Below, piece after piece: positions 4,675-23,606 of a stretch of 35,295 nt of DNA (positions are counted from its first letter, which is position 1; each line of letters opens with the position of its first letter). Position numbers and translations under genes: made by a program. Origin of the DNA: a virus; IMG/VR virus record IMGVR_UViG_3300020470_000080, positions 1-35,295 of that record; one strand, given 5' to 3'. The notes beneath the pieces were generated by a model that did not search any database, was not told the DNA's origin, and saw nothing but the letters and a program-made list of their open reading frames with translations.

Positions 4675-5493
4675 ATGATTATACTAACAGGGTCAAAAGG
4701 ATTCATAGGTCAGAACTTTCTTAAGTATCTGATAGAACATTCTGATGAAGAGATCATCACTGTTGATGAATCTGATTGTTGGGATTGGATAGCATACTTT
4801 AAAGAATGGGATAAAGTATCTCTTATACTGCATCAGGGAGCGATCTCAGACACGACAGAAACTGATATAGATAAACTCCATAGGATGAACGTTTGGTTCA
4901 CCATAGAACTCTTTGAGAGGGCAATAGAGCATCAAATAAACGTTAAGTTTGCATCTTCTGCATCAGTATATGGTAATACAAGAAAAAGTTTATTTGCAAC
5001 TACTCCTAATAAAATATCTCCATTAAACTACTACGCAATTACTAAGTTGCAAATAGATTATTACATCCAAGATAACTTAGATAAGTTCTCATCTATTCAA
5101 AGTTTCAGATACTTTAATGTATACGGAGAAGGAGAAAATCATAAAGGAGATCAGGCAAGTCCAGTACATAAGTTTACCAAACAAATAAAAGAAACAGGTA
5201 AACTAAAACTGTTTGAAGGATCAGGTAAGTATCTAAGAGATTTTATATGGGTTGGTGATATAGTAGAAGTCGTTCTTAATAATGATAAACCATCTGGGAT
5301 CTATGATCTAGGAACAAGTATGCCAGTTAGTTTTAAAACTGTTGCAGAATTGATAGCAGCAAAATATAATGGGGAAATAGAATATATTCCATTCCCAGAA
5401 CATCTAAAAGGAAAATATCAATATCTAACTATCGCAGAACAAATATGGGATTATCAATTTATAAACGTAGCACAGTATCTTAACTTAATTTAA
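4675..5493 (+). CDS. hldD: ADP-L-glycero-D-manno-heptose-6-epimerase-like (HldD/RfaD family)
   Basis: A short-chain NAD(P)-dependent epimerase, 272 residues. Seen: the Rossmann start ILTGSKGFIGQN (residues 3-14), the HldD-typical LHQGAISDTTE near residue 52, SSASVYG, the catalytic YxxxK as YAITK (near residue 121), FRYFNVYGEGE and HKGDQASPVHKF, then LFEGSGKYLRDFIWVGDIV. The HQGAISDTTE and YFNVYGEGE-HKG motifs point to HldD rather than to generic UDP-sugar epimerases. The family inverts carbon 6 of ADP-heptose, the last step before transfer. It is somewhat shorter than bacterial HldD (about 310). It is on the plus strand, against most of the window, with no Shine-Dalgarno before its ATG. It is followed with no gap by the oxygenase gene. 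Confidence 0.88.
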   Translation: MIILTGSKGFIGQNFLKYLIEHSDEEIITVDESDCWDWIAYFKEWDKVSLILHQGAISDTTETDIDKLHRMNVWFTIELFERAIEHQINVKFASSASVYGNTRKSLFATTPNKISPLNYYAITKLQIDYYIQDNLDKFSSIQSFRYFNVYGEGENHKGDQASPVHKFTKQIKETGKLKLFEGSGKYLRDFIWVGDIVEVVLNNDKPSGIYDLGTSMPVSFKTVAELIAAKYNGEIEYIPFPEHLKGKYQYLTIAEQIWDYQFINVAQYLNLI

Positions 5494-6060
5494 ATGCTAA
5501 GAGTCACATTTCCACATAATTTTCATTCAGAAATAATTCCAGAAAATAAAGAAGAATTAATATATGAACTTGAAAATGCAAAATTAGATGAATATCAGAG
5601 TTTTGAATGGAATGATGGATGCTCAGTAAAATTAGAAAGATTATCTATAGATCAAAAATATGCAAAAATATTTAAACCTTCTCTAGACATATTTTTTAAT
5701 GAATTAAATGTAAATCCAAATCAAGTAAGTATATTTTTACATGAGATATGGAGGAATACTTATGAGAAAGGATTTTTTCAAGAAATTCATGATCATACAC
5801 CACTACATTTATCAGGTGTTGTTTTCTTAACTGATGAACAAGAAGGTGATTCTAGATTCTTCTTTAGTCATAGATATGGTTCAGAAATTCCTAGAGAATG
5901 GAGAGATCTAAAATGTCTTTGGGATGATAGACTTTATATAAAAGCAGAACGAGGAAAAGTTTTATTATTTCCATCATATAATCTACATGGAGTAACTATA
6001 CATAAAACAAATAACATTAGAAAAACTGTATCATTTAATTTTATATTTAATCACCCCTAA
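5494..6060 (+). CDS. 2-oxoglutarate/Fe(II)-dependent oxygenase-like protein
   Basis: A 188-residue protein. Residues about 75-185 carry the double-stranded beta-helix pattern of these oxygenases: FQEIHDHTPLHLSGVVFL (HxDH, likely iron ligands), then KVLLFPSYNLHGVTIH (the distal His) and an Arg in NNIRKTVSFNFIF that would bind 2-oxoglutarate. This resembles the 2OG-Fe(II) oxygenases often found in cyanophages, whose substrates are mostly unknown. The ATG directly follows the hldD stop (TAAATG), so they form a two-gene operon. Its 3' end overlaps the cupin gene on the other strand by 14 bases. The neighbours suggest a sugar or glycoprotein substrate, which is inference. Confidence 0.8.
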   Translation: MLRVTFPHNFHSEIIPENKEELIYELENAKLDEYQSFEWNDGCSVKLERLSIDQKYAKIFKPSLDIFFNELNVNPNQVSIFLHEIWRNTYEKGFFQEIHDHTPLHLSGVVFLTDEQEGDSRFFFSHRYGSEIPREWRDLKCLWDDRLYIKAERGKVLLFPSYNLHGVTIHKTNNIRKTVSFNFIFNHP

Positions 6061-6403
6061 AGATCCTGTGCGAATCCTCATCAAAATGTTGTGTAGAAAA
6101 CTCAAACAGTTCTGAATCTACAAGAGCAACCATTTGATGTCTCATCTTTCTTGGAATATGGAATTTATCTCCAGGTTCCAAGATTTTACTTTGGGAAAGT
6201 CCTATATCACTATCGAAACCATAATATAAATGCATCTTACCTGACTGTAAATAAAAAGTTTCATCCTTCAAAAGATGATAATGCCAAGAGCATCTCTTAC
6301 CTTTACTAAAGAATAAAAGCTTACCACAATATTCTGGGGTGTTACATATCCACTTCTCGTAACCCCATCCTTTAGGAACAAATTTAATCTCTGAAGAAGT
6401 CAT
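6047..6403 (-). CDS. Cupin-domain protein, sugar isomerase-like
   Basis: A 118-residue single cupin. Seen: FVPKGWGYEKWI (residues 8-19), the first metal motif SWHYHLLKDETFYLQSGKM (two His and a Glu), and the second motif GDKFHIPRKMRHQM. The opening KGWGYEKWI and the ending TQHFDEDSHRI resemble cupins found with nucleotide-sugar genes. Function could be a sugar-phosphate isomerase or binding protein; I cannot choose. I set the start at 6403 because AAAGGA lies about 10 bases upstream; the ATG at 6424 has no ribosome binding site. It overlaps the HAD gene by 20 bases and is the last gene of the operon. Confidence 0.78.
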   Translation of the reverse strand: MTSSEIKFVPKGWGYEKWICNTPEYCGKLLFFSKGKRCSWHYHLLKDETFYLQSGKMHLYYGFDSDIGLSQSKILEPGDKFHIPRKMRHQMVALVDSELFEFSTQHFDEDSHRIFRGD

Positions 6404-6728
6404 CACAATTGATTCCTTTGTCATCTATGAATAAATCTGCATGAGGTTTACCCATAATTAATTCATTATACTTACAACCCCAATCATCTAATTGTTGTTT
6501 TGTAAGATCAAATAAAACTGCCTCTGCCGATACAGATGCAATAGAATGGGGTTGATCAGAAAATCTACCCATAGCCCGTGCAGTGAAGTAGATAATATAA
6601 TTACCCTCATCGTAAAGTTTATTTATTACCTTGATCTTATCTTGCCAAGGTTCTGCTTTATGGTAATCTCTACCAACCGTTGGAGTACAGATTGTACCAT
6701 CAATATCAACGCAATATCTTTTTGACAT
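6384..6728 (-). CDS. HAD-family phosphatase, EcbF/BcbF-like
   Basis: A 114-residue HAD hydrolase without a cap domain. Seen: the nucleophile motif VDIDGTIC (Asp8 and Asp10), motif II IIYFTARAMG (Thr in FTAR), and a late GKPHADLFIDDKGI with the acidic pair. The order and the closing GKP...DDK...F match small phosphatases of capsule-biosynthesis loci (EcbF/BcbF). In this setting it could remove the 7- or 1-phosphate of a heptose, the step done by GmhB in bacteria, but it lacks the zinc-binding cysteines and longer length typical of GmhB, so that role is inference. Overlaps the kinase gene by 23 bases. Confidence 0.85.
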   Translation of the reverse strand: MSKRYCVDIDGTICTPTVGRDYHKAEPWQDKIKVINKLYDEGNYIIYFTARAMGRFSDQPHSIASVSAEAVLFDLTKQQLDDWGCKYNELIMGKPHADLFIDDKGINCDDFFRD

Positions 6729-7443
6729 CTTCCTCCGTTAAAATGTAAGTGCCTGGTTGCTGAACAGCAATTCCTGCTGCTCTATTACCCAACATAAGGG
6801 ATTGATCTATGTTGTTAGTAGTTATATACCCGTAGACAAGTGCTGCTAAAAAAGTATCTCCAGCACCAACTACATCATATACATTTACTTTTTCTGCTGG
6901 ATATAAAGTTTGTTTGTAAATACAACCTTCAGATCCTTTAGTGACAATTAGATTCTCTATATTATAGTTATCTAATTTCTCATATTCTACATCATTTATT
7001 TTAATAAAGCAATTAGGTCTATTAGGAAGTATAGATTTTTTACTATCAATAAACACAGGACAAGATGAACTATCCACAATTTCAAATATTTTTTTAGTTG
7101 TAAGATACCCCTTATCATAATCAGATATAACAACAGCATCAAAAGTATCTGTTGCTACAGGTATCATAAGAGGTTTTATCTTTTCCTCATTATCAACCCT
7201 AAGTATTTGCTGATTAGATTTCTCATCAATAAATCTTGTCTTAACTAACTGTTCATTATTAGTTAAGAATGTAATATCAAGACCAAATGATTGTAAGTTT
7301 AAACAAACATTACCTGCCATACCAGATTTAGTTTGTATCTTAGCATAGTCTAAAATAGGAACAGGTGCTTCTGGACTTAACCTAGTACATCTACCATAGA
7401 TGTATTCATCCTCACAACTATCACCCAGTAACAGTACTTTCAT
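6706..7443 (-). CDS. PfkB-family heptose-phosphate kinase-like (HldE kinase half)
   Basis: A 245-residue ribokinase-type sugar kinase. Seen: the start MKVLLLGDS, YGRCTRLSPEAPVP, the substrate-binding GMAGNVCLNLQSFG, QQILRVDNEE, the DYDKGY motif (VVISDYDKG), VTKGSEGC, and the ATP/anion-hole motif DVVGAGDTF. LSPEAPVP, MAGNV and QILRVD are typical of HldE1/RfaE, which phosphorylates heptose-7-phosphate at carbon 1. It is about 70 residues shorter than the bacterial kinase domain. I chose the ATG at 7443 because the protein fold begins there; the frame is open further upstream inside the neighbour. Overlaps the nucleotidyltransferase by 23 bases. Specificity is inferred. Confidence 0.87.
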   Translation of the reverse strand: MKVLLLGDSCEDEYIYGRCTRLSPEAPVPILDYAKIQTKSGMAGNVCLNLQSFGLDITFLTNNEQLVKTRFIDEKSNQQILRVDNEEKIKPLMIPVATDTFDAVVISDYDKGYLTTKKIFEIVDSSSCPVFIDSKKSILPNRPNCFIKINDVEYEKLDNYNIENLIVTKGSEGCIYKQTLYPAEKVNVYDVVGAGDTFLAALVYGYITTNNIDQSLMLGNRAAGIAVQQPGTYILTEEDVKKILR

Positions 7444-7837
7444 TAATCTTTTTGATGACATTACTGCTGGCATATCCACCTACTCTAGGAAGATGTCTTA
7501 CCTCACCAGCGTGTTCCCAACCAACTACATCACCATCCCTCCAATCATCACCAAGTAATAATATATCAGGTTGATATAGTTCAATTAGATCTTCTAACTC
7601 TTGTCTACTACCAAAGGTATGAACAACATCAATATACTTGATTGCCTCAAGCATAGCAACCCTATAATGAAGATCATTTATAGGGCGATGCTCTCCTTTG
7701 TCAGTACGAATCTTTTCATCCGTGTCTGTAGCAACTATTACTTTGTTTCCTAGAGATCTAGCAACCTTGAATAGTTCTATGTGTCCTGGATGAAGAATAT
7801 CGAATGTGCCGTTGCACCAAACAATATCATTCTCCAT
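7421..7837 (-). CDS. HldE-type heptose-1-phosphate nucleotidyltransferase-like
   Basis: A 138-residue cytidylyltransferase-fold enzyme. Seen: CNGTFDILHPGH (residues 8-19, the HxGH nucleotide motif), ATDTDEKIR, RPINDLHYRVAML, DILLLGDDW and a C-terminal GYASSNVIKKI, the counterpart of the YSTTNIIxxI helix of the family that carries ADP-heptose synthase. In bacteria this domain is fused to the kinase as HldE; here the two halves are separate neighbouring genes. Glycerol-3-phosphate cytidylyltransferase is the main alternative, less likely because of the kinase beside it. The start overlaps the carbamoyltransferase stop (TAATG). Confidence 0.88.
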   Translation of the reverse strand: MENDIVWCNGTFDILHPGHIELFKVARSLGNKVIVATDTDEKIRTDKGEHRPINDLHYRVAMLEAIKYIDVVHTFGSRQELEDLIELYQPDILLLGDDWRDGDVVGWEHAGEVRHLPRVGGYASSNVIKKINESTVTG

Positions 7838-9600
7838 TATAGTTGTTCCTCTTCCTCTTCATTATATACTCTAGAAACAATACGATTATTATTTCTATCA
7901 ACAAAAACTAACTTCTGTATCTCTGGTAGATACATATAATTAATTTTACTATTACTTAAAGTATCAATTGCATCTTCAATAGTTTCCACTAAAGGATCTC
8001 CACCAAGATTAAATGAAGTATTAAATAATAAAGGAACTCCAGATAATTTTTCAAACTCACTAATCAATTCATAATAATTTTTATTTTGTTTCTCTGTGAC
8101 AGTTTGTATTCTACAAGTACCATCTACATGAATAACTGAAGGAATCTTTTCCTCTACACCAGGTAAACAATCAACAGCGTACATCATATGAGGTGCATCA
8201 TCCATTCCTGCAAGATCAAACCACTCATTAACTTTATCAGCTAGAATAGAACAAGCAAAAGGTCTAAAGTACTCTCTATGCTTTACACTATTAATAATAT
8301 CTTTACCATCCTTAATAGTAGGATCAAATAATATAGAACGATTACCAAGTGCTCTAGGACCACCTTCAGATCTTCCTTGGAAGATAGTAACTATCTCACC
8401 TTTACGGATTAATTTTGCAACATCTTCAGGAGAAGTATCTGTTACTTTACATCCATCATCAATCTGCTCTAAATATGAATCTGGATCATACTGTGGTCCA
8501 TAATATAAGTTATCAAGTGGTTTTAATTTTGGAATATTAGGATTCCAATAATTATTAGCATATACATGATATGCACCACCCATAGATGTTCCACCATCAT
8601 GTGAAACAGGTTCTACAAAAATATTTAAATCTGGAAAATGTTTTACAAACTTATAATTACCAACACAATTCAAAGCATATCCACCAGAAATACAAATATT
8701 CTTTTCTCCAGTTATATCATGTGCTTTTTGAATTAAAGCAATCATTTGTTCTTCAGATTCTTTTTGGATAGCATAAGCCATATCCTTTTGTATTTGAGTC
8801 CATTCACCCCTCTCATGCTTATTATAATCTTCTAAAATCTTTGGAAATCTGGTTGCAAGAAGTCTAGCACCATTAGGATAATTTGGACTGAATAAATCTC
8901 TATTACCAAATCCATTTCTAAACATTGGAGGTATATCTGAATTTGGTTTTCCATATGGGGATAAACCCATTGTCTTTCCAGCTTCTATAGAAGACCACCC
9001 ACAATATTCAGTTACAGCCTCATACTCTTTAACTATACCAGGAAATTCAGTAACTACAACTTCAGGATTAGAGTAATCATCACCTACAGGTACATAACCA
9101 ATAGCAGCAGAAGTTCCTAAGTGCTTATATACAGATTCAAGTTTAAGAGGTTTCTTTGCTTTAAATATACTTTCAAATTCAAATACTACATCATCAACAA
9201 TCTTTGTACCTAAAAAGCTTCCTGCACCATCAACAATAACACAAGCAGCACTATCAAAACCAGAATTTACAAAAGCTGCACTAGCATGCATCTGATGATG
9301 TATAGTATCAATGAATGTTACTTTAAATTCAAACTTCTTTCTAGATAATTTTCTTACCCATCCTTTATACAAATCTTCCCCAGTCCAATCACATTTAGGA
9401 CCATTACGATGTGTATGACATACAACCAAATGATCTATGTAATCAACATACTCAAATACTTTTTTTAAACCTAATAAAGGTGTTCCATCACGTTTCCATC
9501 TGGATAATCTTTCTTCTTCAAGATAAAATACTATTTCACCATCAACCAATAATGTAGTACTGGAATTATGTCCACGGGCACAAGATACAATGATACTCAT
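7837..9600 (-). CDS. NodU/CmcH-family carbamoyltransferase
   Basis: A 587-residue enzyme that transfers a carbamoyl group from carbamoyl phosphate through a carbamoyl-AMP intermediate, usually to a sugar hydroxyl. Seen: N-terminal ARGHNSSTTLLVDGEI and LEEERLSRWK, the metal-binding HHQMHASAAF (near residue 153), VDGAGSFLG, CISGGYALNCVGN, the C-terminal (YrdC-like) GRSEGGPRALGNRS, YFRPFACSIL, and FNTSFNLGGDPLVET. The length is typical. Such genes occur in some cyanophages next to sugar genes. It starts 8 bases after the glycosyltransferase stop. The acceptor is unknown; a heptose or derivative is suggested by the adjoining HldE and HldD genes. Confidence 0.93.
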   Translation of the reverse strand: MSIIVSCARGHNSSTTLLVDGEIVFYLEEERLSRWKRDGTPLLGLKKVFEYVDYIDHLVVCHTHRNGPKCDWTGEDLYKGWVRKLSRKKFEFKVTFIDTIHHQMHASAAFVNSGFDSAACVIVDGAGSFLGTKIVDDVVFEFESIFKAKKPLKLESVYKHLGTSAAIGYVPVGDDYSNPEVVVTEFPGIVKEYEAVTEYCGWSSIEAGKTMGLSPYGKPNSDIPPMFRNGFGNRDLFSPNYPNGARLLATRFPKILEDYNKHERGEWTQIQKDMAYAIQKESEEQMIALIQKAHDITGEKNICISGGYALNCVGNYKFVKHFPDLNIFVEPVSHDGGTSMGGAYHVYANNYWNPNIPKLKPLDNLYYGPQYDPDSYLEQIDDGCKVTDTSPEDVAKLIRKGEIVTIFQGRSEGGPRALGNRSILFDPTIKDGKDIINSVKHREYFRPFACSILADKVNEWFDLAGMDDAPHMMYAVDCLPGVEEKIPSVIHVDGTCRIQTVTEKQNKNYYELISEFEKLSGVPLLFNTSFNLGGDPLVETIEDAIDTLSNSKINYMYLPEIQKLVFVDRNNNRIVSRVYNEEEEEQL

Positions 9601-9608
9601 AATTTACC

Positions 9609-10712
9609 TCAAGATTTTTTAGCTTCTATTTCTAGTATTTCATCAATAGGTTTTTTCTTTTTCTTAGATTTTGGTACAGTAAAAGGTTCTCCAAACTTCT
9701 TAACTGGTGGTGTAACATTGGTACTTGCAGATATTGCCATTGGTCTATCAGATTTTTTTGGAGAAAATGCTTTTAAACCGAAATTTTTTGAGTTGCTTCC
9801 TACTTTATCCTTAATAGATTTAACAATTTTTTTAACAGTATCCTTATCAACAACCATTAAATCCTCATTATTTCTATCAGCATTAAGATCTATTGTCATT
9901 CTAATAGGACTATACCGTCTCTTATCTTTACCATTATCAATAATAGTGAAATCTTTACTTTCTGGATATGATATATTCTCAGGAAAAGTTGACCCAATAA
10001 CAACAGTTGCTGGTTTACCAACAGCATGTGCTAAATGTTGTCCTACACTATCACAACCTAAGAAATAATCTGCAGCATTAATTACACCTGCCCATCCATT
10101 TAAACCAATACCAGTAGGTTTAGCAACTCCAAGAGATGTCCATCCTGGTATCTCAATTTCAGACATTAATATTACACAAAAATCTTTATTCAATTCTTTT
10201 ATTATTTCAATAATATTAGAAACTTCAAAACTTCTGCCAGTACTATCGTATATAAAATTACCTTCTGCTTTAGCACTCTGACCAAATGGTTGGAATATTA
10301 CAACCTTATCTTTCTTAAGGGTTTCCTTTACTTCTAAAATTAGATTATGTCCAGTAATTTGATCTTCCTTATTAAGATCTAAATTGATCTTCCCAGTTTC
10401 TGGTACTTCATCAAGTTCATTAATCTCTATATCAAAAGCCTGTATAAGATTACACTTCTGATTAAAGTATTGATTAACTCTATAAGGTTCTGGTGATATA
10501 ATCTTCTTATCTTTTAACTTCTCTTCAAATAAATCTTTATGACCTAAAGGATAAACATGATCCCTTAAATTCTTATTATTTAAATACAACTCAGACCAAG
10601 ATTCAGAAACGATTATAAAATCATCATTCCCATTTTCTTTATGTCTCTCTAATGCTGGCATAGAGCAAAGCACACGCCCTGCTCCACCATTAATGAAAAA
10701 AGCTTTATTCAT
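9609..10712 (-). CDS. Glycosyltransferase family 9-like (heptosyltransferase-like)
   Basis: A 367-residue protein resembling ADP-heptose:LPS heptosyltransferases. Seen: the N-terminal FFINGGAGRVLCSMPAL (the usual GxGD replaced by GGAG), a central VVIFQPFGQSAK, and the C-terminal donor-binding part YFLGCDSVGQHLAHAVGKPATVVIG, close to the family motif DSGxxHLAxAxGxPxVxLFG. A long basic tail rich in Lys and Pro (from about residue 310, ending KKKKKPIDEILEIEAKKS) lies beyond the GT-B fold and may be disordered. It is the first gene of the six-gene sugar operon, behind a strong promoter, with a GAGG site about 10 bases before the ATG. Donor and acceptor are inferred. Confidence 0.82.
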   Translation of the reverse strand: MNKAFFINGGAGRVLCSMPALERHKENGNDDFIIVSESWSELYLNNKNLRDHVYPLGHKDLFEEKLKDKKIISPEPYRVNQYFNQKCNLIQAFDIEINELDEVPETGKINLDLNKEDQITGHNLILEVKETLKKDKVVIFQPFGQSAKAEGNFIYDSTGRSFEVSNIIEIIKELNKDFCVILMSEIEIPGWTSLGVAKPTGIGLNGWAGVINAADYFLGCDSVGQHLAHAVGKPATVVIGSTFPENISYPESKDFTIIDNGKDKRRYSPIRMTIDLNADRNNEDLMVVDKDTVKKIVKSIKDKVGSNSKNFGLKAFSPKKSDRPMAISASTNVTPPVKKFGEPFTVPKSKKKKKPIDEILEIEAKKS

Positions 10713-10799: not shown

Positions 10800-11876
10800 T
10801 TAACTATAGCAAACGTGAACCTTACCAAACTTACCAGAATCTCCATAGAGACTATTACCACCACCCATTGCGTGTGAACCCCATCCACCAGCACCAGGCA
10901 TCCTTAAGCAATTCATCGCCCAAGCACTACACTGGCATCCACAACAGTTACCAGAAGTATATTGAACACAACATTTACTTTCATATGCTTGAGTGCCATC
11001 CCAAACTGGAGCATGTATTTCATAACCATAATGGTTGCCATCCCAACAATTTCTTGGCCATATTCCACGAAGACCGTATACAACATTCTCCGCAGTTGGA
11101 TTTTCTATATCTTTAATATTTCCATGATACCCTGCACCAGCAATGTACATAACTTCACCTTGAGAGTTCTCACCATCCCAACACCAGTCAGAACCTTGGT
11201 TACAGAATCTCATTCCGTTACCATTAGTATAATATTGGTATCTACAAGTACAAGGTGTACCAGTCATTGCCATCCAAGTACCCATTGATCCTTGTCCACC
11301 AGAAGCACAGAAATTACATAACTTACAACCTTGAACATAAGAACAATGTCCAGACCATCTTCGATGGTTCTCTGTTGTATATCCATAACAACAGTATGCA
11401 CAACCAGCACATAATGTATATGTCCAACCAGCTTCTACTGGAACAATTACAGAAGCATAAGCACCTGTTGAACCAAAAACTGTATGTCCACAACAGCAAG
11501 GTGGTTTATTAGCACCACCACCTGCACCCCAAATTTGGAATCTTGCTTTTGTTACTCCTGCTGGAACAGTCCAAGTACAGCTAGCACCACAACGATAATA
11601 TCCTGATGTATCACAAACTTCTACTTCTCCAGTCCAACCACCACCAGTGTAAATTGTCCAAAGAGAAGTATCATCTGGACAGAACCAATGAGCTTTCTCA
11701 TTACCAGTGCTTCCTAACCAAGCTTTAGCACATTCAACAGGGTCTCCAGCAGCACCACCACCAGAAGATGGATCTTTAGCATTTAGCTTAAGATCAAATA
11801 AACATTTTTGTTTTTCAGCTATATCCTTTTTTAATGCAGCTTGTTCATTAAGTGCACTATAAATTAATACATCCAT
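10800..11876 (-). CDS. Cysteine-rich, glycine-rich virion protein (paralogue of 12587-13633)
   Basis: A 358-residue protein with about 30 cysteines. An N-terminal helical part (residues 1-45) is followed by CTWTVPAGVTKARFQIWG, a glycine-rich AGGGANKPPCCCG, then GAYASVIVPVEAGWTY and LCAGCAYCCYG, and many more Cys pairs. The WTVPxGVT...WGAGGG core is the same glycine-rich adhesin module as in 20040-21689, but with cysteines added. No signal peptide or zinc-enzyme motif is seen. It begins right after the stop of the 224-residue gene with GGAGG 10 bases before the ATG. I infer a virion surface protein stabilised by disulfides or metal; the function is unknown. Confidence 0.78.
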   Translation of the reverse strand: MDVLIYSALNEQAALKKDIAEKQKCLFDLKLNAKDPSSGGGAAGDPVECAKAWLGSTGNEKAHWFCPDDTSLWTIYTGGGWTGEVEVCDTSGYYRCGASCTWTVPAGVTKARFQIWGAGGGANKPPCCCGHTVFGSTGAYASVIVPVEAGWTYTLCAGCAYCCYGYTTENHRRWSGHCSYVQGCKLCNFCASGGQGSMGTWMAMTGTPCTCRYQYYTNGNGMRFCNQGSDWCWDGENSQGEVMYIAGAGYHGNIKDIENPTAENVVYGLRGIWPRNCWDGNHYGYEIHAPVWDGTQAYESKCCVQYTSGNCCGCQCSAWAMNCLRMPGAGGWGSHAMGGGNSLYGDSGKFGKVHVCYS

Positions 11877-12583: not shown

Positions 12584-12591
12584 TATTTATA
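12584..12591 (-). promoter_or_regulatory. T4-type late promoter motif TATAAATA
   Basis: Exact minus-strand match, 33 bases before the ATG at 12551 and overlapping the last codons of the upstream gene. Confidence 0.6.
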
Positions 12592-13633
12592 AGTAGGAAA
12601 CACATACCATTCCCATTCTACCAATGTCAGCACATCCATGATTATCTCCACCACAAGTAGCATAACCAAATGCACCAGCATTAGGTATTTGATGAGCACA
12701 GTAACATGCTTGATAGCAACATCCACCATTCTCATTACTAAAGCAGAAGCAGCAGCAAGATTCAGATGGGAATCCATATACACCAGGTGACCAAGTACAG
12801 AATTCATTTGCACCATGATCATAATGTGCATAACTAAACTGTCCAGGAATACCCCAAACATCACCATTTGTTGCTTCCCCATAGAAAGTCTTACAACTTG
12901 CAGTTGATTGATAATGCATATCTCTATATCCTTCTGGATATGCTACACCACCAGTTTCAGTACTTTCTGAACAATAATCTGTTCCAGTATTACAAATACA
13001 AGAACCCATCCACATACAATAACTATCACTTATAACCTGTACACATTGCTGTCTTGATTTAACTTCACAGAAAATACTACTTTCTCCACCTTCAGCACAG
13101 AAGTTAGTTAATCCATTACCTGTTACATAAGATGGGCATCCATCTTGAGTCATCTGGTTTCTTTCTGTATAACAACAGTAAGCACAACCAGCACAAAGAT
13201 TATATGAATCACCAGCAGTTACTGGAATAATTACAGAAGCATAAGCACCAGATCCACCATTAGGAGATCCACCACAACAACAACTAGTTCCTGATCCACC
13301 ACCAGCACCCCAAATTTGGAATCGAGCACAAGTTACGCCACCTGGAACAGTCCAAGTACACTGAGCGTTACACCTTCTATAAGATGAAGTTTCACAAACT
13401 TTAAAACCACCAGTCCAAGAACCGCCTGAAGCAGCTGTCTTTGGTATCATACACCATAAACCAGTGTTAGGAGCACCAGCACCTTTAAGAATTTCAATAC
13501 AATCTGCTGCATTACCAGCACCACCTTCTTCTGGTGCAGCAGAAGTTATTCCAACCTGTAAAGATGCTTGTTCTGCCTTCAATTCTTGATTAATCTCTTG
13601 AATAGCATTATAGGTCAATACATCAGCTGCCAT
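12587..13633 (-). CDS. Cysteine-rich, glycine-rich virion protein (34 Cys)
   Basis: A 348-residue protein with 34 cysteines (almost 10 percent), far above normal for a phage protein. Layout mirrors the gene at 10800-11876: an N-terminal helix (MAADVLTYNAIQEINQEL), an Asp/Cys linker, then RRCNAQCTWTVPGGVTCARF, WGAGGGSGTSCCCGG, GAYASVIIPVTAGDSY, LCAGCAYCCYTE, a long Cys-rich tail (for example SESCCCFCFS) and a closing MGMVCVSYL. AGGT lies a few bases before the ATG at 13633. The glycine-rich core and the genomic place suggest a tail or fibre adhesin. Cysteine roles (disulfide or metal) cannot be told from sequence. Confidence 0.78.
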   Translation of the reverse strand: MAADVLTYNAIQEINQELKAEQASLQVGITSAAPEEGGAGNAADCIEILKGAGAPNTGLWCMIPKTAASGGSWTGGFKVCETSSYRRCNAQCTWTVPGGVTCARFQIWGAGGGSGTSCCCGGSPNGGSGAYASVIIPVTAGDSYNLCAGCAYCCYTERNQMTQDGCPSYVTGNGLTNFCAEGGESSIFCEVKSRQQCVQVISDSYCMWMGSCICNTGTDYCSESTETGGVAYPEGYRDMHYQSTASCKTFYGEATNGDVWGIPGQFSYAHYDHGANEFCTWSPGVYGFPSESCCCFCFSNENGGCCYQACYCAHQIPNAGAFGYATCGGDNHGCADIGRMGMVCVSYL

Positions 13634-14053: not shown

Positions 14054-17000
14054 TTAAATTTGTCCAGCAAAGAATTCAGATACCTGAATACCTTTTGTTA
14101 GATCAGATCTAAGAGTAGCTATATCAGCAACAGTCTGTGTTCTTTCAGAAGTTAACCCTGCAGTTGCATGATTTTGTGCCATTACTAGATGTTCTGCATC
14201 TTTAGTAGCGACATAAGTTCTAATTGCAGCCTGTGTTGGAACTTTCTCATGACTGTTTTGTGACATTGTTCCATCAGTTGAGAACTCATTAATTTGAGCA
14301 CCTAACTGAGCACCAATTGAACCCAATCTCAATGAAGTTAGACCAGATAGATCGAAAGCACTAGCATTCAATGTTGCTGATCCAGTTGCCTGGTTAACAC
14401 GGAAGTACTTACCAACACGGAAGTTACCCTGTTCATCAGTAGAAACATAGAATACCCTTCCTGGGAAGTCCTCAGTAATTTCCTGAGTTTGAACTGGATC
14501 TACTGATGGAACTGATGGCCAATTAGTAGTTGCAGTTCCTCCTGTACCAACTTGTAAGAAGTCATGACCAGTTAATCTTGCCTGACTGTAGATATAACGT
14601 ATCCTTATATCCTGTTCATCAAATGCCTTAGCAGCTTTTTCTTCAACCAAACTTACCTGAGTAGTACCATAAGTATCTGTAGATACTCCAGTAACCTTAA
14701 CAAATTCATCATCTATTTTAAGATAATTGCCAATAGAATCCCAGAATCTTGTTGATAATGTTGCTCTGAAATTGGTAGAAACTCCAGTAAAGTCTTTATT
14801 AATTTCAGCAGCACTAATATAACTAGTTGCTCCAATAGCAACGAATGTAGAACCAATTGCATATGAAGTAGCAATACCAGCACCATCTTGTTCTCTAGTA
14901 ACAGTCATTGAGTTTGCAGTTGGGAAACTAACAATCTTACAAAGTTCGTTAGTTGGTGATAAACAATATTCACCAGGGTTAAATCCACTAATAGTACTTG
15001 TACTGAATGTAGTATCAGTATCAGAAGCAGGAGTTAATAGCGTAAATGAACCAGAATTAGCAGGATAATCAATTATAGATGTATTACCACCAGTATGTGC
15101 AGCACCTGTTGTAGTCCATTGTGCCCTGTCAATATTGATAGTACCTTTTCCAGTAGGACCAACTTGACTTACACCTGAAATAACAAATGTAAATGGATCA
15201 GCACCAGTAATGTTATCATCATTATAACCACCATTACCAAGTCCAGTAATAAACTCTATACTACCATTCTCTTCAAGAGTAGGTGAAGTTCCTAAACCAG
15301 AAAGAACAAGTGTAAATCCAGTTTGACCTTGGTTTGCACTAGTATTATTAATAAGATCTGCAGTAACTCCTGAAGTTTGTCCTGTAATAGTTTCACCTGG
15401 AGCAAAACCAGTACCAACACCAACTGCACCCTGACTAATTACTGAATAATAAATTTGATCTAATGTAGTTCCTTGAACAGTATTAATTTGTCCCCAAGCA
15501 CCAGAAGTATTACCTCTAATTCTTTCACCAATTTGGAAATCTCCTCCAACTTTAGTATCAACATCATATCTAAGTACTAATCCTTCAATTTGTCCTTTTC
15601 TAAAATCCTCAAGAGGACTGAATCCAGAACTTACAACACCATACTTACCCCAAGAACTGTTTCCAACAAGAGATCTAAGTCTTCCACCACGAGTAGCAGC
15701 ATAACTTATATGGTTATAATATGTGAAACAAGAAACTGTTTCTGCCACAGCACCATCTGTGATCCAGAATGCCATTCCTTCATCGTGAATGTTTGTGAAT
15801 GAGTCAAACACGATAGATTTGTTAGAAGGTGTTGCCGATCCATCTACAAATTGTCTATGAACTCCACCATCTACTATTGCACCAACACCTTTAGTTGATT
15901 TTGCAGAACAGTTTGATACATATGGAGATTTAATAACTCTACTTTCTGGATTTAATGCAACAAATACACCTTTAATATGTGCATTATTAGGATCATATGA
16001 ATTTGCAGTGAAGGTAAGCTCAGTCGCACCAAGATTTTGTTGCTTATCAACTTCTATTTCAGTACCACTAATAAATCCACTAACCCTTGTTGCAGCAGAT
16101 ACACCAGCACCAGTTACAGTTGTTCCAACTAAATCTGGGAATAAATTTGTACCAGATACTTTAGATCCAGTAATAGTACAAGTTCTAGTTGTAACTATAC
16201 CTGCTGGAGTAAATCCAGTAAGATCTTCCATTAGAATATCTTTAAGCATCGTAGCGTTACTTAACATAAACATTGTAGAATGCTTATTTGGTCGAGTAAC
16301 AGCAGATGTAATTGCTATATCAGTTCCACCATTCTCCCAAGTATCTGATGTTGTCCAAGGACCACCAGAAAGATTACGAATTTGAATTGCTGTCTCAGCA
16401 TAATCAGAATCTAAAATAACAGCACATTTAGTTCCTGCTCCATTCCATATTGAAGAACCATATGAAACAGTAGTAGGAGCAGATGCCAATACCAAATCTT
16501 GATGGTTAGATGAATCTGCTTTACCAACATTAACTGTAATTGTGTCTGCTGTAGTAGCAGTGATTGGTATAGCAGTGTTACCAAAAACTGGATCTTTTAC
16601 TCTTGGATAAGCATGTTGAGTTTTATGATTATCCTGAGAACAAGTAAATACTAATCCGTGTCCACCAATTTGAATTGTATTAGCAGTAGTTAAAGAATGT
16701 CCACCTACCTTTAATACAAGATCTCCTGTTGCAGAATCATAAGTTGTACCAGATAATGGCGTAAGTGCAGGTCCAGAATTAGGAGTAATACAACCAGCAA
16801 CACCACTTATAAATGTATGATCGTACTGAACACCAGCTTTAATTGTAGATGTTCTTAAGTTATCACCAACAATTGATACACCTTCTGGAACTACAATAGG
16901 AAGTGTTTCAGAATATGTTCCTGCCTTTACATAAATTGTTGCAGGTCCAGTTGCTATACCACAAGCTTTTTGAATAGTAGCAAATGATCTACTAATATTT

Positions 17001-18007
17001 GATCCATCATTAGTATCTTTACCTTCTTCTGTTACATAGTAAACTGGATGCGTTACTCCAGAATTTTCCCAATTGGGCATACCGTCACTACTCATTGAGA
17101 GTACTTGACCGTTAGTTCCTTTCGGTAATCTTGCAGCACCAGTTGTATAGTAAACAATGTCACCCTGTGTGGTCATCACATTGTTTGATGCACCCTCAGC
17201 TAACATACTCCAGTAAACACTGGTTGTATCCGTTGAAGGATCTTGACCTATACTTCCAGCAGTTGAAACACCAACATAACTATTACTTAATCTCTTTACA
17301 GCATCACCAAGTTGGTAAGTAGTATTAACATCCCAGTTACCTCTCCAATTAAAACCTTTATTAACTAGAGACCAATTAGCTACTGTTGTAGGAGGAATAT
17401 TTACACTCGTTGTAATTGCAACGTATGAATATCCACCCCAAGTAACAACATCACCTTGAGTATAATCAGTTGTACTTGTCCAATCACCAACTACATTAAA
17501 TCCTGTAGTTATAATATCCCAATCATTACTTAAGTTATATGCAGGTGGTTTATTTGTATGAACACTCTTTGAAACATATGTGTAACCACCATAAGTTACA
17601 ACATCCCCATCTTGATACTGTGCTACAGAACTCCAAGTATCTTCATAATTAAATGACTGTACATATTCTACTACACTACCAGTAGTATCCGCTTCATCAA
17701 AAGTTGCACCAGAAGTAAATCCAGCAGTTACTCTATACTGAGTATTACCATATTTAAATATATCGTTTATCTTATACCAATTATTATTCTGCCATTCTCC
17801 TTTATGAGTAATGCCTTCCGTATGCAATGACCAATTAGAAAAATCTGAAGAATAAAAAAGATTCTCGTTTCCAGCAGATGTATGATTAGTTTTACAAACG
17901 TAAGTATTGGCACCATACTTTATAATGTCATCAATGACATACGCAGTACTAGTAGTCCAATCATTACGCCAATTAAATTTTAATCTGCCAAGTCTAAATT
18001 CAGCCAT
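14054..18007 (-). CDS. Large modular tail fibre protein with carbohydrate-binding repeats
   Basis: A 1317-residue protein. Residues 11-268 hold five tandem repeats of about 50 residues, each with W, then Y..GD/DD.V/I.Y/W.G..Y (for example DWTSTTDYTQGDVVTWGGYSY, repeat four), like carbohydrate-binding module families 5 and 12. A spacer follows, then VYYVTEEGKDTNDGS and a right-handed beta-helix (VPEGVSIVGDNLRTSTIKAG), as in 28401-30875. A module with FTCSQDNHKTQHAYPRVKDP lies near residue 460. The C-terminal FYVSTDEQGNFRVGKYFRV is also shared with 28401-30875. The role is a host-binding fibre, inferred from the modules and size. Upstream AGGAT could be its ribosome binding site. Confidence 0.85.
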   Translation of the reverse strand: MAEFRLGRLKFNWRNDWTTSTAYVIDDIIKYGANTYVCKTNHTSAGNENLFYSSDFSNWSLHTEGITHKGEWQNNNWYKINDIFKYGNTQYRVTAGFTSGATFDEADTTGSVVEYVQSFNYEDTWSSVAQYQDGDVVTYGGYTYVSKSVHTNKPPAYNLSNDWDIITTGFNVVGDWTSTTDYTQGDVVTWGGYSYVAITTSVNIPPTTVANWSLVNKGFNWRGNWDVNTTYQLGDAVKRLSNSYVGVSTAGSIGQDPSTDTTSVYWSMLAEGASNNVMTTQGDIVYYTTGAARLPKGTNGQVLSMSSDGMPNWENSGVTHPVYYVTEEGKDTNDGSNISRSFATIQKACGIATGPATIYVKAGTYSETLPIVVPEGVSIVGDNLRTSTIKAGVQYDHTFISGVAGCITPNSGPALTPLSGTTYDSATGDLVLKVGGHSLTTANTIQIGGHGLVFTCSQDNHKTQHAYPRVKDPVFGNTAIPITATTADTITVNVGKADSSNHQDLVLASAPTTVSYGSSIWNGAGTKCAVILDSDYAETAIQIRNLSGGPWTTSDTWENGGTDIAITSAVTRPNKHSTMFMLSNATMLKDILMEDLTGFTPAGIVTTRTCTITGSKVSGTNLFPDLVGTTVTGAGVSAATRVSGFISGTEIEVDKQQNLGATELTFTANSYDPNNAHIKGVFVALNPESRVIKSPYVSNCSAKSTKGVGAIVDGGVHRQFVDGSATPSNKSIVFDSFTNIHDEGMAFWITDGAVAETVSCFTYYNHISYAATRGGRLRSLVGNSSWGKYGVVSSGFSPLEDFRKGQIEGLVLRYDVDTKVGGDFQIGERIRGNTSGAWGQINTVQGTTLDQIYYSVISQGAVGVGTGFAPGETITGQTSGVTADLINNTSANQGQTGFTLVLSGLGTSPTLEENGSIEFITGLGNGGYNDDNITGADPFTFVISGVSQVGPTGKGTINIDRAQWTTTGAAHTGGNTSIIDYPANSGSFTLLTPASDTDTTFSTSTISGFNPGEYCLSPTNELCKIVSFPTANSMTVTREQDGAGIATSYAIGSTFVAIGATSYISAAEINKDFTGVSTNFRATLSTRFWDSIGNYLKIDDEFVKVTGVSTDTYGTTQVSLVEEKAAKAFDEQDIRIRYIYSQARLTGHDFLQVGTGGTATTNWPSVPSVDPVQTQEITEDFPGRVFYVSTDEQGNFRVGKYFRVNQATGSATLNASAFDLSGLTSLRLGSIGAQLGAQINEFSTDGTMSQNSHEKVPTQAAIRTYVATKDAEHLVMAQNHATAGLTSERTQTVADIATLRSDLTKGIQVSEFFAGQI

Positions 18008-18022
18008 TGTTTTTTTTAAATC

Positions 18023-18403
18023 CTATTTTGGTCCTGCGGAATAATCATGATCACTAAACGATACTGTTAGATATCCATCATCATCGATATAATAGGAAGT
18101 CTTCCTAAAATCGAATCTAAACTGTTGGTATTTATCGTACTCGTTGTTCTTATAAGTTTTTTCTTCAGTGGTTTCATCCACATAATCTAAACCTTCTAAG
18201 AATTCTGGGTATGGTGTGCCATCAAGTCTATGAGATACGTCAACTACCTCATCATCAGTAGTCTTCACTTTAGTATACCTAAGCATTCCATCATCATCTC
18301 TTCTCAATGCATGAACATAGAATCTATCTTGTTGACCAAATTGAAGTGCACCGCCACCACCACTGGTGCCAGATAGCATACTTCCACTTAGAAACATTGT
18401 CAT
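18023..18403 (-). CDS. Conserved virion-associated hypothetical protein
   Basis: A 126-residue protein starting MTMFLSGSMLSGTSGGGGAL, with GGGG followed by RFYVHALRRDDDGMLRYTK, an acidic middle and an ending LTVSFSDHDYSAGPK. No family recognised, but its place among fibre genes suggests a small virion or assembly protein. The start is decided by the ribosome binding site: GGAGGG lies 7 bases before the ATG at 18403, while the ATG at 18418 has none. It overlaps the upstream stop by ATGA. Confidence 0.72.
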   Translation of the reverse strand: MTMFLSGSMLSGTSGGGGALQFGQQDRFYVHALRRDDDGMLRYTKVKTTDDEVVDVSHRLDGTPYPEFLEGLDYVDETTEEKTYKNNEYDKYQQFRFDFRKTSYYIDDDGYLTVSFSDHDYSAGPK

Positions 18404-19155
18404 GCAAATACCCTCCAATAAGTATTAGTCCAAACTAATTTTACAGATGCACCAGCAACATCACATGCTAAGGGAGAATCAATCGTGCCAGTATAATTTT
18501 TAAACTGCTCGTTATTTTGGGTTGCAACCATAAGATTATTTATGTCCCAACATGATTCTGTGTCATGTATTTCAACAAAGTCTCCAGCGTTCTTACTTAA
18601 AGGAAGAGTTACTGTAAATCCTGCACCCACTGTATTGGTCAAATAACCTTTATTAGAATCCAAATTAGCAGAAGAATTTAATAAGGTTAATGGTGGTATT
18701 GTAGCATCTGCTCTAACAGAAAGATTATTAAAATCAACAACTACTGTACTTCCATAACCAGTAATAGTTAAACCAGATCCAACAAAATTAACATCTGTAA
18801 ATCCAATACCTATTCTATATCCAACATCACCACTTTCTGCATTAACTGTTGTTGATCCAATACCAACACCAGATGTATATAATTGACCATCATTAAATAA
18901 TTTACCTTTAAAATCTAAATCACCACCAATGAATAACTTATTTTGGAATGTAGATACTCCAACAACAGTTACTCCAGCACCTACAGTAAGGTCACTAGAA
19001 ATTCTAGTATCACCAAGAACATCCAGTTTATATTGAGGATTTAAACTTCCGATACCAACATTAGGAGATGTCGTACTGGTAATAGCAATCTTACCTGTAG
19101 TGTCATCTACTACAATATAATGACCAAGTTGTGAAAGCTCTCTATTGAATGCCAT
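18400..19155 (-). CDS. Tail-fibre-like virion protein
   Basis: A 251-residue beta-rich protein. The N-terminus MAFNRELSQLGHYIVVDDTTG leads into fibre repeats (VGIGSLNPQYKLDVLG, DLTVGAGVTVVGVSTF, KLFIGGDLDFKG). The C-terminal 90 residues, from LTNTVGAGFTVTLPLS to WTNTYWRVFA, look like the terminal beta-domain also seen at the end of 19182-20003. YKLDVLG, repeated in 3127-4638, recalls fibre proteins of other phages. A box one base off TATAAATA (AATAAATA, 19176-19183) lies 21 bases upstream. Likely a small fibre or an adhesin tip; partner unknown. Confidence 0.75.
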   Translation of the reverse strand: MAFNRELSQLGHYIVVDDTTGKIAITSTTSPNVGIGSLNPQYKLDVLGDTRISSDLTVGAGVTVVGVSTFQNKLFIGGDLDFKGKLFNDGQLYTSGVGIGSTTVNAESGDVGYRIGIGFTDVNFVGSGLTITGYGSTVVVDFNNLSVRADATIPPLTLLNSSANLDSNKGYLTNTVGAGFTVTLPLSKNAGDFVEIHDTESCWDINNLMVATQNNEQFKNYTGTIDSPLACDVAGASVKLVWTNTYWRVFA

Positions 19156-21714: not shown

Positions 21715-21735
21715 TATTATTTATTTATTTATTAA
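21715..21735. repeat. TTAT tandem repeat between the protease and adhesin genes
   Basis: Four TTAT units (21717-21732) and a partial fifth overlap the stop codon of the protease gene. On the minus strand they give overlapping AATAAATA boxes, one mismatch from the late promoter TATAAATA, 26-43 bases before the adhesin ATG at 21689. Confidence 0.55.
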
Positions 21736-23606
21736 TGTGAGAATGATATACCAGTAACAGCAATACCAACCATAGATGCTTTTCCATTATTACAAAAGGG
21801 ATTTAATAAAACTCTTCTCTTTGAACTCCTTAAACCATAGTTACTACCCCAATAGAGTGCATCAGTTGCACTATTACTTTGATATGGATCATAAAATCCA
21901 GGAGTTGATGTAGTAGCATCATTATCTGAAACCTCAACTGAACCATGAGTTAATACCCATTTCCTAGCTTGTGCTCTAGTTGCATCTGGTTGTGATTGCA
22001 AATATAACGCCATAACTCCAGCAAGATTTGGACAAGACATACTGGTTCCCTGAAGATACTCATTGTAAAAATTAGGATCTCTAGGATCATCATATCCACT
22101 ATTATACGGACTAAGAATAGATGATCCAGCAGACCAAATATCAATCTTAGGTCCCCTACAACTAAAGTAAGAACATCTTTCTTGTCCATTTGTTGTCTGC
22201 CTAAAATTATCCATAGAACCAGAAACTATAACCTGATCCTCTCTACCTTCAGCACCAATAGCAGGTGTTCCTGACCTATTATAATGATGACCCCTATCAC
22301 TATAATAAAAAGTAGCATTAGTTATTTCATTATCATAATCTATCCCTCCAGGTATATCCTGCTTATCAACAGAATTACCTGCAGAAAAACAAAATACTAT
22401 ATCTTTACAATCAGGATCATCAAGTATTTCATCAACTTCTGCCTGTTTAACTGTATGAACTGCAGTAAACTGCTTATAAGATGCATTCAAATTATCCATA
22501 TAATATACAGATGGACAAGTTGTTGAATTCATATTTGATTTATTATATGAAACTCCTCTTTGTGTTGCATCATAATCAAGATCACTACGAAAAAATTGTC
22601 TAAATCCCCAACTACCATTAACAACAGTAGGATTTCGTCTACCAGTTTCTGGATTAATTGGTTTATTTTTATGCCAAACTTTAATATAATCAAATCCATC
22701 GCAAGGATCTGCCCATCCTAAATCAGATCTATCAATACAAGCAATAGACCATATATTTGCTTCAAAAGCCCATCCAAATTGATTTCCTGCAGCAGTTCCA
22801 GCAACGTGACTACCATGCCAACTAATAGTCCAAGGATAAGAACTATATCCCTTCTCCATTAATAATGCCCCATCAACATCATAATAATTTAATGGATTAG
22901 ATCCAGGAGCAGCTAATCCTTCCGCAGCCCAATTGATACCATATTCAGATGCACCATGAATTAATATATCTCTTACCCTAGTATGTTGTTCACAATTAGT
23001 AGGAGAAGGAACAGGACTTGTAGATCCTGGTTTTAAAAACTCTGGATGGTCCCATCGAACCCCAGTATCCATAATAACAACATCAACATTTTTTCCAGAT
23101 AATGTAAATGGAATATCTATATCTACCTGACCTGCATCAACAAATTTATTAGCTCTATATGAATGTCTATACAAACCCCATTGAGTATAATCCAATTTAG
23201 GTGGAGCAGTAACAGGACTTGCCCCACTCCTCATATTTCTAACATCATACTTATACCTATTAGCATCTATAAACTTATCAAATCCTTCATCATATTTTCT
23301 CTGCTCTAATACATACTCATTATATAATGTAGATTTTTCAACAAATCTAATCTTAGGATGTTTTCTTAAAACTTCTGCTTCAGCAGGAGACATTTCATAT
23401 ACACTTCTCTTAGGAGAACACTTCATCTCCGAAGTACAATCAATCTTTCTATTTGGAATATCATCTATATTATTTTCGTTAATTATATAATTATGAATCT
23501 CATTCCAATCTTCAGCATCATTTACGTAAACAGTATATGGTTGTTGCTTATCTGAATGAACAACAAGAACTCTACCTGTTTTTGGATCTGTTGTTGTAGC
23601 AATCAT
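21732..23606 (-). CDS. Subtilisin-like serine protease (S8) within the tail cluster
   Basis: A 624-residue protein with a full S8 catalytic set: Asp180 (VVIMDTGVRWDHPEF), His264 (SWHGSHVAGTAAG), the oxyanion Asn411 (FSAGNSVD) and Ser522 (QGTSMSCPNLAGVM). Residues about 70-92 (MSPAEAEVLRKHPKIRFVE) look like the end of an inhibitory propeptide, so it may self-activate. The C-terminal 50 residues are outside the catalytic core. No signal peptide. Its place among adhesin genes and tight overlap (4 bases) with the upstream gene suggest it is late and packaged, perhaps to process fibre proteins or to attack the host surface; neither is shown. Confidence 0.93.
   Translation of the reverse strand: MIATTTDPKTGRVLVVHSDKQQPYTVYVNDAEDWNEIHNYIINENNIDDIPNRKIDCTSEMKCSPKRSVYEMSPAEAEVLRKHPKIRFVEKSTLYNEYVLEQRKYDEGFDKFIDANRYKYDVRNMRSGASPVTAPPKLDYTQWGLYRHSYRANKFVDAGQVDIDIPFTLSGKNVDVVIMDTGVRWDHPEFLKPGSTSPVPSPTNCEQHTRVRDILIHGASEYGINWAAEGLAAPGSNPLNYYDVDGALLMEKGYSSYPWTISWHGSHVAGTAAGNQFGWAFEANIWSIACIDRSDLGWADPCDGFDYIKVWHKNKPINPETGRRNPTVVNGSWGFRQFFRSDLDYDATQRGVSYNKSNMNSTTCPSVYYMDNLNASYKQFTAVHTVKQAEVDEILDDPDCKDIVFCFSAGNSVDKQDIPGGIDYDNEITNATFYYSDRGHHYNRSGTPAIGAEGREDQVIVSGSMDNFRQTTNGQERCSYFSCRGPKIDIWSAGSSILSPYNSGYDDPRDPNFYNEYLQGTSMSCPNLAGVMALYLQSQPDATRAQARKWVLTHGSVEVSDNDATTSTPGFYDPYQSNSATDALYWGSNYGLRSSKRRVLLNPFCNNGKASMVGIAVTGISFSH

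Follow-up and report, generated by a model that had tools for sequence, protein, structure and literature searches.

A cupin predicted to replace GmhA in a heptose cassette of marine cyanophages

Introduction

ADP-heptose is made through the GmhA-HldE-GmhB-HldD pathway, in which GmhA, an enzyme of the SIS type, isomerizes sedoheptulose 7-phosphate. To our knowledge, the literature surveyed names no isomerase other than GmhA for this step, and inhibitors of GmhA are reportedly sought as antibacterials. Here we describe a heptose cassette at positions 4675-10712 of the virus record IMGVR_UViG_3300020470_000080, whose 35,295 bases were analysed as a whole and are called the window below. A 125-residue cupin encoded in this cassette is very likely the sedoheptulose-7-phosphate isomerase. 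The cassette resembles the known pathway in having relatives of HldE1, HldE2 and HldD and a GT9-fold transferase. It differs in that a cupin would serve as the isomerase and a minimal HAD protein as the phosphatase, and in that the kinase and nucleotidyltransferase are split and shortened.

The cassette is not new as DNA. The window comes from a relative of cyanophage P-SSM2 (over bases 1-25,000, 67% can be aligned to P-SSM5 and P-SSM2, with identity near 82%), and P-SSM2 carries the same set as PSSM2_307-313 (T4-GC 302-308) in the order GT9-like, carbamoyltransferase, HldE2, HldE1, HAD and cupin. Identity to the P-SSM2 proteins is 86% for the kinase, 97% for the nucleotidyltransferase, 92% for the epimerase, 88% for the cupin and 69% for the GT9-like protein, whereas the epimerase end has another order in P-SSM2, with a different 2-oxoglutarate (2OG) oxygenase beside the epimerase. 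Sullivan et al. (2010) reported that T4-GC 304, 305, 307 and 308, which are the nucleotidyltransferase, kinase, cupin and epimerase, co-occur with three others in three phages as 'LPS' (lipopolysaccharide) genes, and did not decide whether they have a function (PMC3037559). Heptose genes were also named in phage SynMITS9220M01 (PMC7378029). A sequence-only reading of the window had called a phage-borne heptose pathway striking, on the premise that the LPS of marine Synechococcus lacks heptose. The premise is right for strains WH8102 and CC9311 (PMC4515613), but the gene set itself was already on record; what is new is the proposed isomerase.

The isomerase in phages and archaea

The sequence-only reading also held that the isomerase was the only step not seen. 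This does not hold as put: a cupin in the same operon, missing from its gene list, is very probably the isomerase, as the archaeal exchange and the ligand residues described below suggest, and the HAD protein is not GmhB by profile. The SIS-type isomerase that it proposed to look for gave no PF13580 match in the window record, and the cupin itself matches neither TIGR00441 nor PF13580. The rest of the genome can be tested only through relatives. PF13580 fails to list the divergent SIS protein of SynMITS9220M01, and hence 14 phage records (11 genome-length, three contigs of 37-66 kb) were searched whole with TIGR00441 and with that protein; 13 of them gave no SIS-type GmhA. The exception is SynMITS9220M01, where a SIS GmhA lies in a sub-cluster of its own with a second GHMP kinase and a HAD/nucleotidyltransferase-like open reading frame (ORF; 15571-18650 of locus L008). 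An isomerase elsewhere in the phage genome was rejected on these results, together with the lack of a PF13580 SIS match in seven of seven records.

The cupin, by contrast with the SIS protein, accompanies the kinase throughout the marine phages. A tblastn search with the kinase gave 36 phage-collection records, and all 31 marine ones carry the cupin. Four further records bring the total to 35: two of Bellamy, SynMITS9220M01 and AG-345-E15, where the cupin lies between an HddC-like enzyme and an HddA-like GHMP kinase, which in SynMITS9220M01 scores 287 bits against NF049969 (cut-off 600). We read this arrangement as a GDP-heptose branch. The ADP and GDP heptose branches have two steps in common, those of the isomerase and the phosphatase. 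Of the 12 HddA records, eight come from outside the marine phages; none of these eight has a cupin match at E<=1e-3, and three of them have SIS matches.

The same pattern is seen in IMG/VR, where the cupin is present in 53 of 53 testable HldE1-type loci and 18 of 18 testable loci with the unrelated HddA-type kinase, and a GmhA hidden Markov model (HMM) has no match within the 71 fetched loci (0/53 and 0/18). This model scores 180 bits on the SynMITS9220M01 SIS protein, one of its own seeds. Conversely, one or other of the two kinases is present in 50 of 51 cupin loci. A testable locus has at least 3 kb on each side, which set aside 25 of 78 HldE1, 4 of 22 HddA and 29 of 80 cupin loci. The HldE1 loci are the best 80 of 589 (L081 and L137 being shared with the cupin set) and the cupin loci the 80 nearest the query of 561 confirmed; their contigs overlap. 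The cupin line was set at 100 bits, and two of the 53 HldE1 loci were counted with cupins at 94.5 and 91.8 bits. One phage locus, L274, encodes a fusion of the cupin to HldE2.

In archaea, the cupin is found in the same heptose-operon slot as GmhA and with the same fusion partner, HldE1. Among 371 genomes of the archaeal phylum of the Woesearchaeota, 99 hold 106 HldE1 places, and within 3 kb of these lie GmhA in 45 cases, the cupin in 20, both in none and neither in 41. At the 81 strong places (HldE1 at least 200 bits), the counts for GmhA, cupin, both and neither are 39, 17, 0 and 25 (Fisher p 2.4e-6, uncorrected for genome relatedness). The phylum was chosen because four of its genomes (G003, G004, G005 and G009) carry the cupin; without these four, the counts become 45, 17, 0 and 40 of 102 places, and 39, 15, 0 and 24 at the strong ones (p ~1e-5 to 2e-5). 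GmhA rows at or below 32.9 bits and cupin rows at or below 51.2 bits were left out, the dropped GmhA rows lying mostly in frames of ~600 residues that presumably resemble GlmS. By whole genome, the 79 with strong HldE1 divide into 41 with GmhA only, 17 with the cupin only, seven with both and 14 with neither.

Ten archaeal stretches were read for gene order. Two have GmhA, epimerase, HldE1 and GmhB-HldE2 (L331, L332), and three have cupin, epimerase, HldE1 and GmhB(-)HldE2 (L333-L335). Four contain HldE1-GmhA fusions of 510-522 residues (L327-L330), and the tenth an HldE1-cupin fusion of 426 residues (L336); a common frame length in the tables indicates seven HldE1-cupin and six HldE1-GmhA fusions. 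In the cupin operon of L333, HldE1 (383 bits) and HldE2 (191 bits) pass their cut-offs, HldD falls 5 bits short and GmhB reaches 142 bits (cut-off 178). No GmhA match at E<=1e-5 was recorded for the genome of L333. Two Woesearchaeota proteins join the same parts, an HldE1-cupin fusion of 436 residues (L072) and a GmhB-cupin-HldE2 protein of 475 residues (L073).

The scan of genome contigs gave 63 cellular cupin loci in all, of which at least five (L015-L017, L019, L074) appear to be cyanophage contigs placed in the bins of other organisms. These five, and perhaps L018, L023 and L034, carry cyanophage-type cassettes on contigs assigned to Euryarchaeota, Planctomycetaceae, Rhodobacteraceae and others, and are likely phage contigs in metagenome-assembled genomes.

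Fold and active site of the cupin

The AlphaFold model of the cupin (pLDDT 93.6) retrieves D-lyxose isomerases first in Foldseek (7nzp, E 6e-9), with CapF just after, and profile matches include 7nzo (E 3e-6) and 2y0o (E 1e-5). VIA-align gives Z 15.8 for CapF, Z 15.3 for a Thermococcus phosphomannose isomerase (root-mean-square deviation 1.7 over 101 residues) and Z 15.0 for 7nzo (2.8 over 114 residues, 26% identity).

The ligands of the Thermofilum D-lyxose isomerase are K62, H75, H77, K86, E88, H143, E156 and D163, as given in PMC8378251. In the profile alignment, K35, H48, H50, K53, E55, H96 and E108 of the cupin stand at the first seven of these eight positions. The seven residues are kept in 185-186 of 186 phage cupins (143 distinct sequences), in 62-63 of 63 cellular ones (a set that includes the phage-like contigs) and in all 20 kinase-linked archaeal cupins. 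The cupin thus shares with D-lyxose isomerases (PF07385; 7nzo, 2y0o) the fold and the ligand series K, H, H, K, E, H, E in corresponding positions, but it is shorter, only about 26% identical and under the Pfam cut-off: PF07385 (gathering 20.8) does not list the window cupin and gives 18.9 bits for that of SynMITS9220M01. Cupin_2 (PF07883) scores 29.3 bits on the window cupin, above its gathering value of 27.2.

The conversion of sedoheptulose to D-glycero-D-manno-heptose is the same ketose-aldose change as that of D-fructose to D-mannose, with one carbon more, and a manno-specific ketol-isomerase is therefore the expected kind of enzyme. A precedent is the cupin-type phosphoglucose isomerase of Pyrococcus, a metal-dependent cupin that catalyses a reaction otherwise carried out by a conventional sugar-phosphate isomerase that needs no metal (PMC6627849 and PMC8378251), although on another substrate. 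This enzyme is not among the 39 profile matches or the fold-search rows shown, which excludes nothing.

Some relatives of the cupin stand in other settings. In L077 (10342-11355) and similar Binatia-type loci, it lies directly upstream of a GDP-mannose 4,6-dehydratase, above cut-off where tested (L077). In Prochlorococcus AG-409-P03 (L024, 9983-10324), it lies beside radical-SAM and PseC-like aminotransferase genes, and the family probably has another use there.

Enzymes and layout of the cassette

The cassette sits in the fibre cluster of the window. Six genes lie on the minus strand, in the order GT9-like, carbamoyltransferase, HldE2-like, HldE1-like, HAD and cupin, and two on the plus strand:

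4675-5493, plus strand: HldD-like ADP-heptose 6-epimerase, shortened (272 residues) and divergent; TIGR02197 214.3 bits; best PDB match HldD 1eq2, E 4e-45
5494-6060, plus strand: 2OG-Fe(II) oxygenase, missing from the sequence-only list; PF13759 51.7 bits
6047-6424, minus strand: cupin, 125 residues, proposed sedoheptulose-7-phosphate isomerase in place of GmhA; Cupin_2 match
6384-6728, minus strand: minimal HAD phosphatase, proposed heptose-1,7-bisphosphate 7-phosphatase; DxDGT motif; TIGR01689 32.6 bits; PDB 9iqw, a capsule biosynthesis protein, E 3e-10
6706-7479, minus strand: HldE1-like kinase; TIGR02198 150.6 bits, top family; GAGDT motif aligned with archaeal HldE1 above cut-off
7421-7837, minus strand: HldE2-like heptose-1-phosphate nucleotidyltransferase, 138 residues; TIGR02199 106.2 bits; 32% identity to archaeal HldE2 above cut-off
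7837-9600, minus strand: NodU/Nol-type O-carbamoyltransferase, 587 residues; PF16861 196.8 bits and PF02543 77.1 bits, both above cut-off; phrog_1601
9609-10712, minus strand: GT9-fold glycosyltransferase, 367 residues, proposed heptosyltransferase, from its predicted structure (pLDDT 85.6) and Foldseek

All the genes that the sequence-only reading had named are present as intact ORFs: the separate HldE-type kinase and nucleotidyltransferase, the HldD, HAD and GT9-like genes and the NodU-type gene. Its assignment of the core enzymes to a nucleotide-heptose pathway is borne out by NCBIfam, which ranks the heptose models first for the HldE1-like, HldE2-like and HldD-like proteins. All three stay below the equivalog cut-offs (345, 181.5 and 274.6 bits, respectively), which is compatible with shortened phage proteins. 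Better matches to enzymes outside heptose synthesis, which that reading had named as the outcome that would count against it, were not found for these three: the heptose models outscore all other models listed, so that chance similarity is not the explanation. For the HldE2-like protein, the best model outside the heptose family is that of TagD at 72.3 bits, and the best PDB relative of the kinase is the heptose 7-phosphate kinase 4e84.

For the HAD protein, no GmhB model (NF006506 or TIGR00213) is listed in NCBIfam, and TIGR01689 is the only model at E<=1e-3, far below its cut-off of 162 bits; the protein is a probable 7-phosphatase. The GT9-like protein has no Pfam match and reaches only 19.2 bits with TIGR02201 (cut-off 170). 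Its model, by contrast, has GT9 or heptosyltransferase entries in 30 of the first 31 Foldseek rows, the best being the GT9 protein 3tov (E 1.3e-9), WaaF, WaaC and TibC, with moderate TM values of ~0.5. Complexes of WaaC and TibC with ADP-heptose or its analogue are among these matches, consistent with the ADP-heptose transferase supposed earlier.

Public labels of two cassette genes are apparently mistaken and recur in many records. The HAD gene is called phosphoheptose isomerase, and the cupin gene nucleotidyltransferase or cysteine dioxygenase; in P-SSM2 they are labelled phosphoheptose isomerase and nucleotidyltransferase. The affected entries include PSSM2_311 and PSSM2_312 (L001, 26312-26993) as well as PHROG_1238 and PHROG_7851, PHROG_1238 'phosphoheptose isomerase' being the HAD protein. 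We considered the HAD protein as the isomerase, as these labels would have it, and rejected this on the NCBIfam result.

Across 83 distinct phage loci, both the GT9-like and the carbamoyltransferase gene are present in 50, where the epimerase is on the opposite strand; both are absent from 22, where it is on the same strand; and the remaining 11 are arranged otherwise. The GT9-like/carbamoyl layout adjoins fibre, coat or neck genes in P-SSM2, S-CAM1, S-CAM3, S-SSM7 and Sf-FS3. In P-TIM68, S-SM2, S-T4 and Sf-CH5, the cassette lies among other sugar genes.

Discussion

The cassette is likely to encode a complete nucleotide-heptose pathway. In the pathway that we propose, the cupin would isomerize sedoheptulose 7-phosphate, taking the place of the SIS enzyme GmhA, to which it is not orthologous; the HldE1-like kinase would phosphorylate C1; the small HAD protein would then take the phosphate off C7; the HldE2-like enzyme would make the nucleotide-heptose, most likely ADP-heptose; the HldD-like enzyme would invert C6; the GT9-fold protein would transfer the heptose; and the carbamoyltransferase would decorate the sugar, most likely on virion fibres. 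What the sequences and models show directly is gene content, co-occurrence, the exchange with GmhA, a conserved active site and the folds; catalysis at every step, the nucleotide, the target of carbamoylation and the acceptor are inferred. The nucleotide is probably ADP. CTP-using enzymes, and thus CDP as the carrier, are favoured by a single-sequence search with the HldE2-like protein, whereas the profiles and the GT9 fold favour ADP.

That search result is one of several observations that weigh against this pathway or against the cupin as its isomerase. The best profile E-value for the cupin belongs to a two-domain quercetinase, and VIA-align, which ranks CapF first, cannot tell a lyxose isomerase from other cupins. 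The counterpart of the eighth ligand, D163, in the alignment is position 115, where D, E, N and V all occur, and a conserved D117 lies two residues on. Close relatives are found away from heptose kinases, beside GDP-mannose dehydratase in Binatia-type loci and beside radical-SAM and aminotransferase genes in a Prochlorococcus, so that more than one sugar phosphate may be a substrate of the family. The cupin tree (115 columns) is poorly resolved, and the kinase-linked cupins are not one clade. The exchange with GmhA also has gaps: at 41 of the 106 archaeal kinase places neither gene lies within 3 kb, eight of the 99 kinase genomes have both somewhere, SynMITS9220M01 has both the cupin and the SIS protein in separate sub-clusters, and no cupin match at E<=1e-3 was obtained for five of the 36 kinase records, all five from outside the marine phages.

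If the cupin is not this isomerase, it could be a mannose-6-phosphate isomerase, or a broad manno-sugar-phosphate isomerase that supplies mannose units, with the first heptose intermediate coming from a host GmhA. Such a role would fit the fold and profile matches to the Thermococcus phosphomannose isomerases 7zvm/7zvy, the relatives adjoining GDP-mannose dehydratase and the known cyanophage gene for a type II mannose-6-phosphate isomerase (PMC9602691). We regard it as unlikely. The eight cassette proteins include no ManC or phosphomannomutase, and where the cupin takes the GmhA slot in archaeal operons, the identified neighbours are heptose enzymes, the other genes being untyped. A host supply of GmhA was rejected as a general answer, since 156 of the 201 genomes in the family of Prochlorococcus G010 have no GmhA match at E<=1e-3. 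The cupin might instead modify the finished sugar nucleotide, like the C3/C5 epimerases DdahB and MlghB, which are cupins that act on GDP-heptoses in Campylobacter and so document cupins in heptose modification (PMC7949155); its co-occurrence with nucleotide-heptose enzymes of both branches would agree with this. The two cupins scanned, though, match no RmlC or dTDP-sugar epimerase family, the metal site and the lysine/glutamate set of a ketol-isomerase are kept, and the cupin substitutes for GmhA rather than being added to it, which makes a nucleotide-modifying cupin very unlikely. Still less probable is a cassette that is functionless, capsid-filling DNA or a partly decayed island. Sullivan et al. 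left 'stuffer DNA' open for these clusters (PMC3037559), and the core enzymes are shortened and below equivalog cut-offs, but the ORFs are intact and overlapping, the residues of the catalytic motifs are invariant, and the same gene set is rearranged yet kept together in diverse genera.

A rival to the last step alone deserves more weight: the phage may attach the product to the surface LPS or capsule of its host and thereby block a second phage, instead of decorating its own fibres. We put this somewhat short of an even chance. Known GT9 enzymes act mostly on LPS, and related clusters with other transferases lie away from the fibre genes in S-SM2, P-TIM68, S-T4 and Sf-CH5. The form with the GT9-like and carbamoyltransferase genes, on the other hand, lies among fibre and neck genes, a layout from which we read these two enzymes as acting on virion parts, and TibC, which we take to be an autotransporter-protein heptosyltransferase, is among the fold matches of the GT9-like model. 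On balance, we slightly favour virion fibres as the acceptor.

Most hosts lack a heptose pathway, but not all. Among the 201 genomes of the G010 family, GmhA is matched in 45 and HldE1 in 27, and 25 of the genomes with HldE1 also have GmhA, which further tempers the novelty claimed for a phage-borne pathway. A close cupin (179 bits) is found in this family only in G010, the centre of the search, in another gene context.

Returning to the cupin as isomerase, we lean toward a wider reading, in which a second, unrelated family of metal-dependent cupins catalyses the first committed step to heptose, has become tied to heptose kinases more than once, and has spread in marine cyanophages and Woesearchaeota-type archaea; a lytic phage would then build heptose from a Calvin-cycle intermediate and put it, possibly carbamoylated, on virion fibres in hosts that mostly make none. 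Our literature search, judged from titles and the starts of abstracts and with most subscription journals outside it, returned no report of a cupin GmhA. If true, a cupin form of the isomerase would account for the 'incomplete' look of heptose pathways in phages and archaea, set right wrong gene labels that PHROGs and GenBank pass on to many genomes, and provide a small, readily assayable enzyme. For a cluster that in 2010 could still be stuffer DNA, there would then be a concrete claim, that these phages make and attach heptose.

Some further observations concern the surroundings of these genes. Transketolase-like genes lie beside the heptose genes of S-SM2 and P-TIM68 (L005, 6984-8192, and L004, 7847-8992) and might make sedoheptulose 7-phosphate. 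A viral contig of jumbo size (L298, 326,658 bases) has a compact HldE2-HldE1-cupin trio, with no HldD or HAD match in the fetched locus by the HMMs used. Within the fibre cluster of the window, a protease-like protein is encoded at 21732-23606, and the protein at the equivalent position in P-SSM2 is annotated with PF00082 (subtilase). Directly upstream of the GT9-like gene, two proteins very rich in Cys, Gly, Trp and Tyr (10800-11876 and 12587-13633) are candidate acceptors or fibre tips, and proteins of similar look, judged by eye, also occur near the cassette in L011 and L012.

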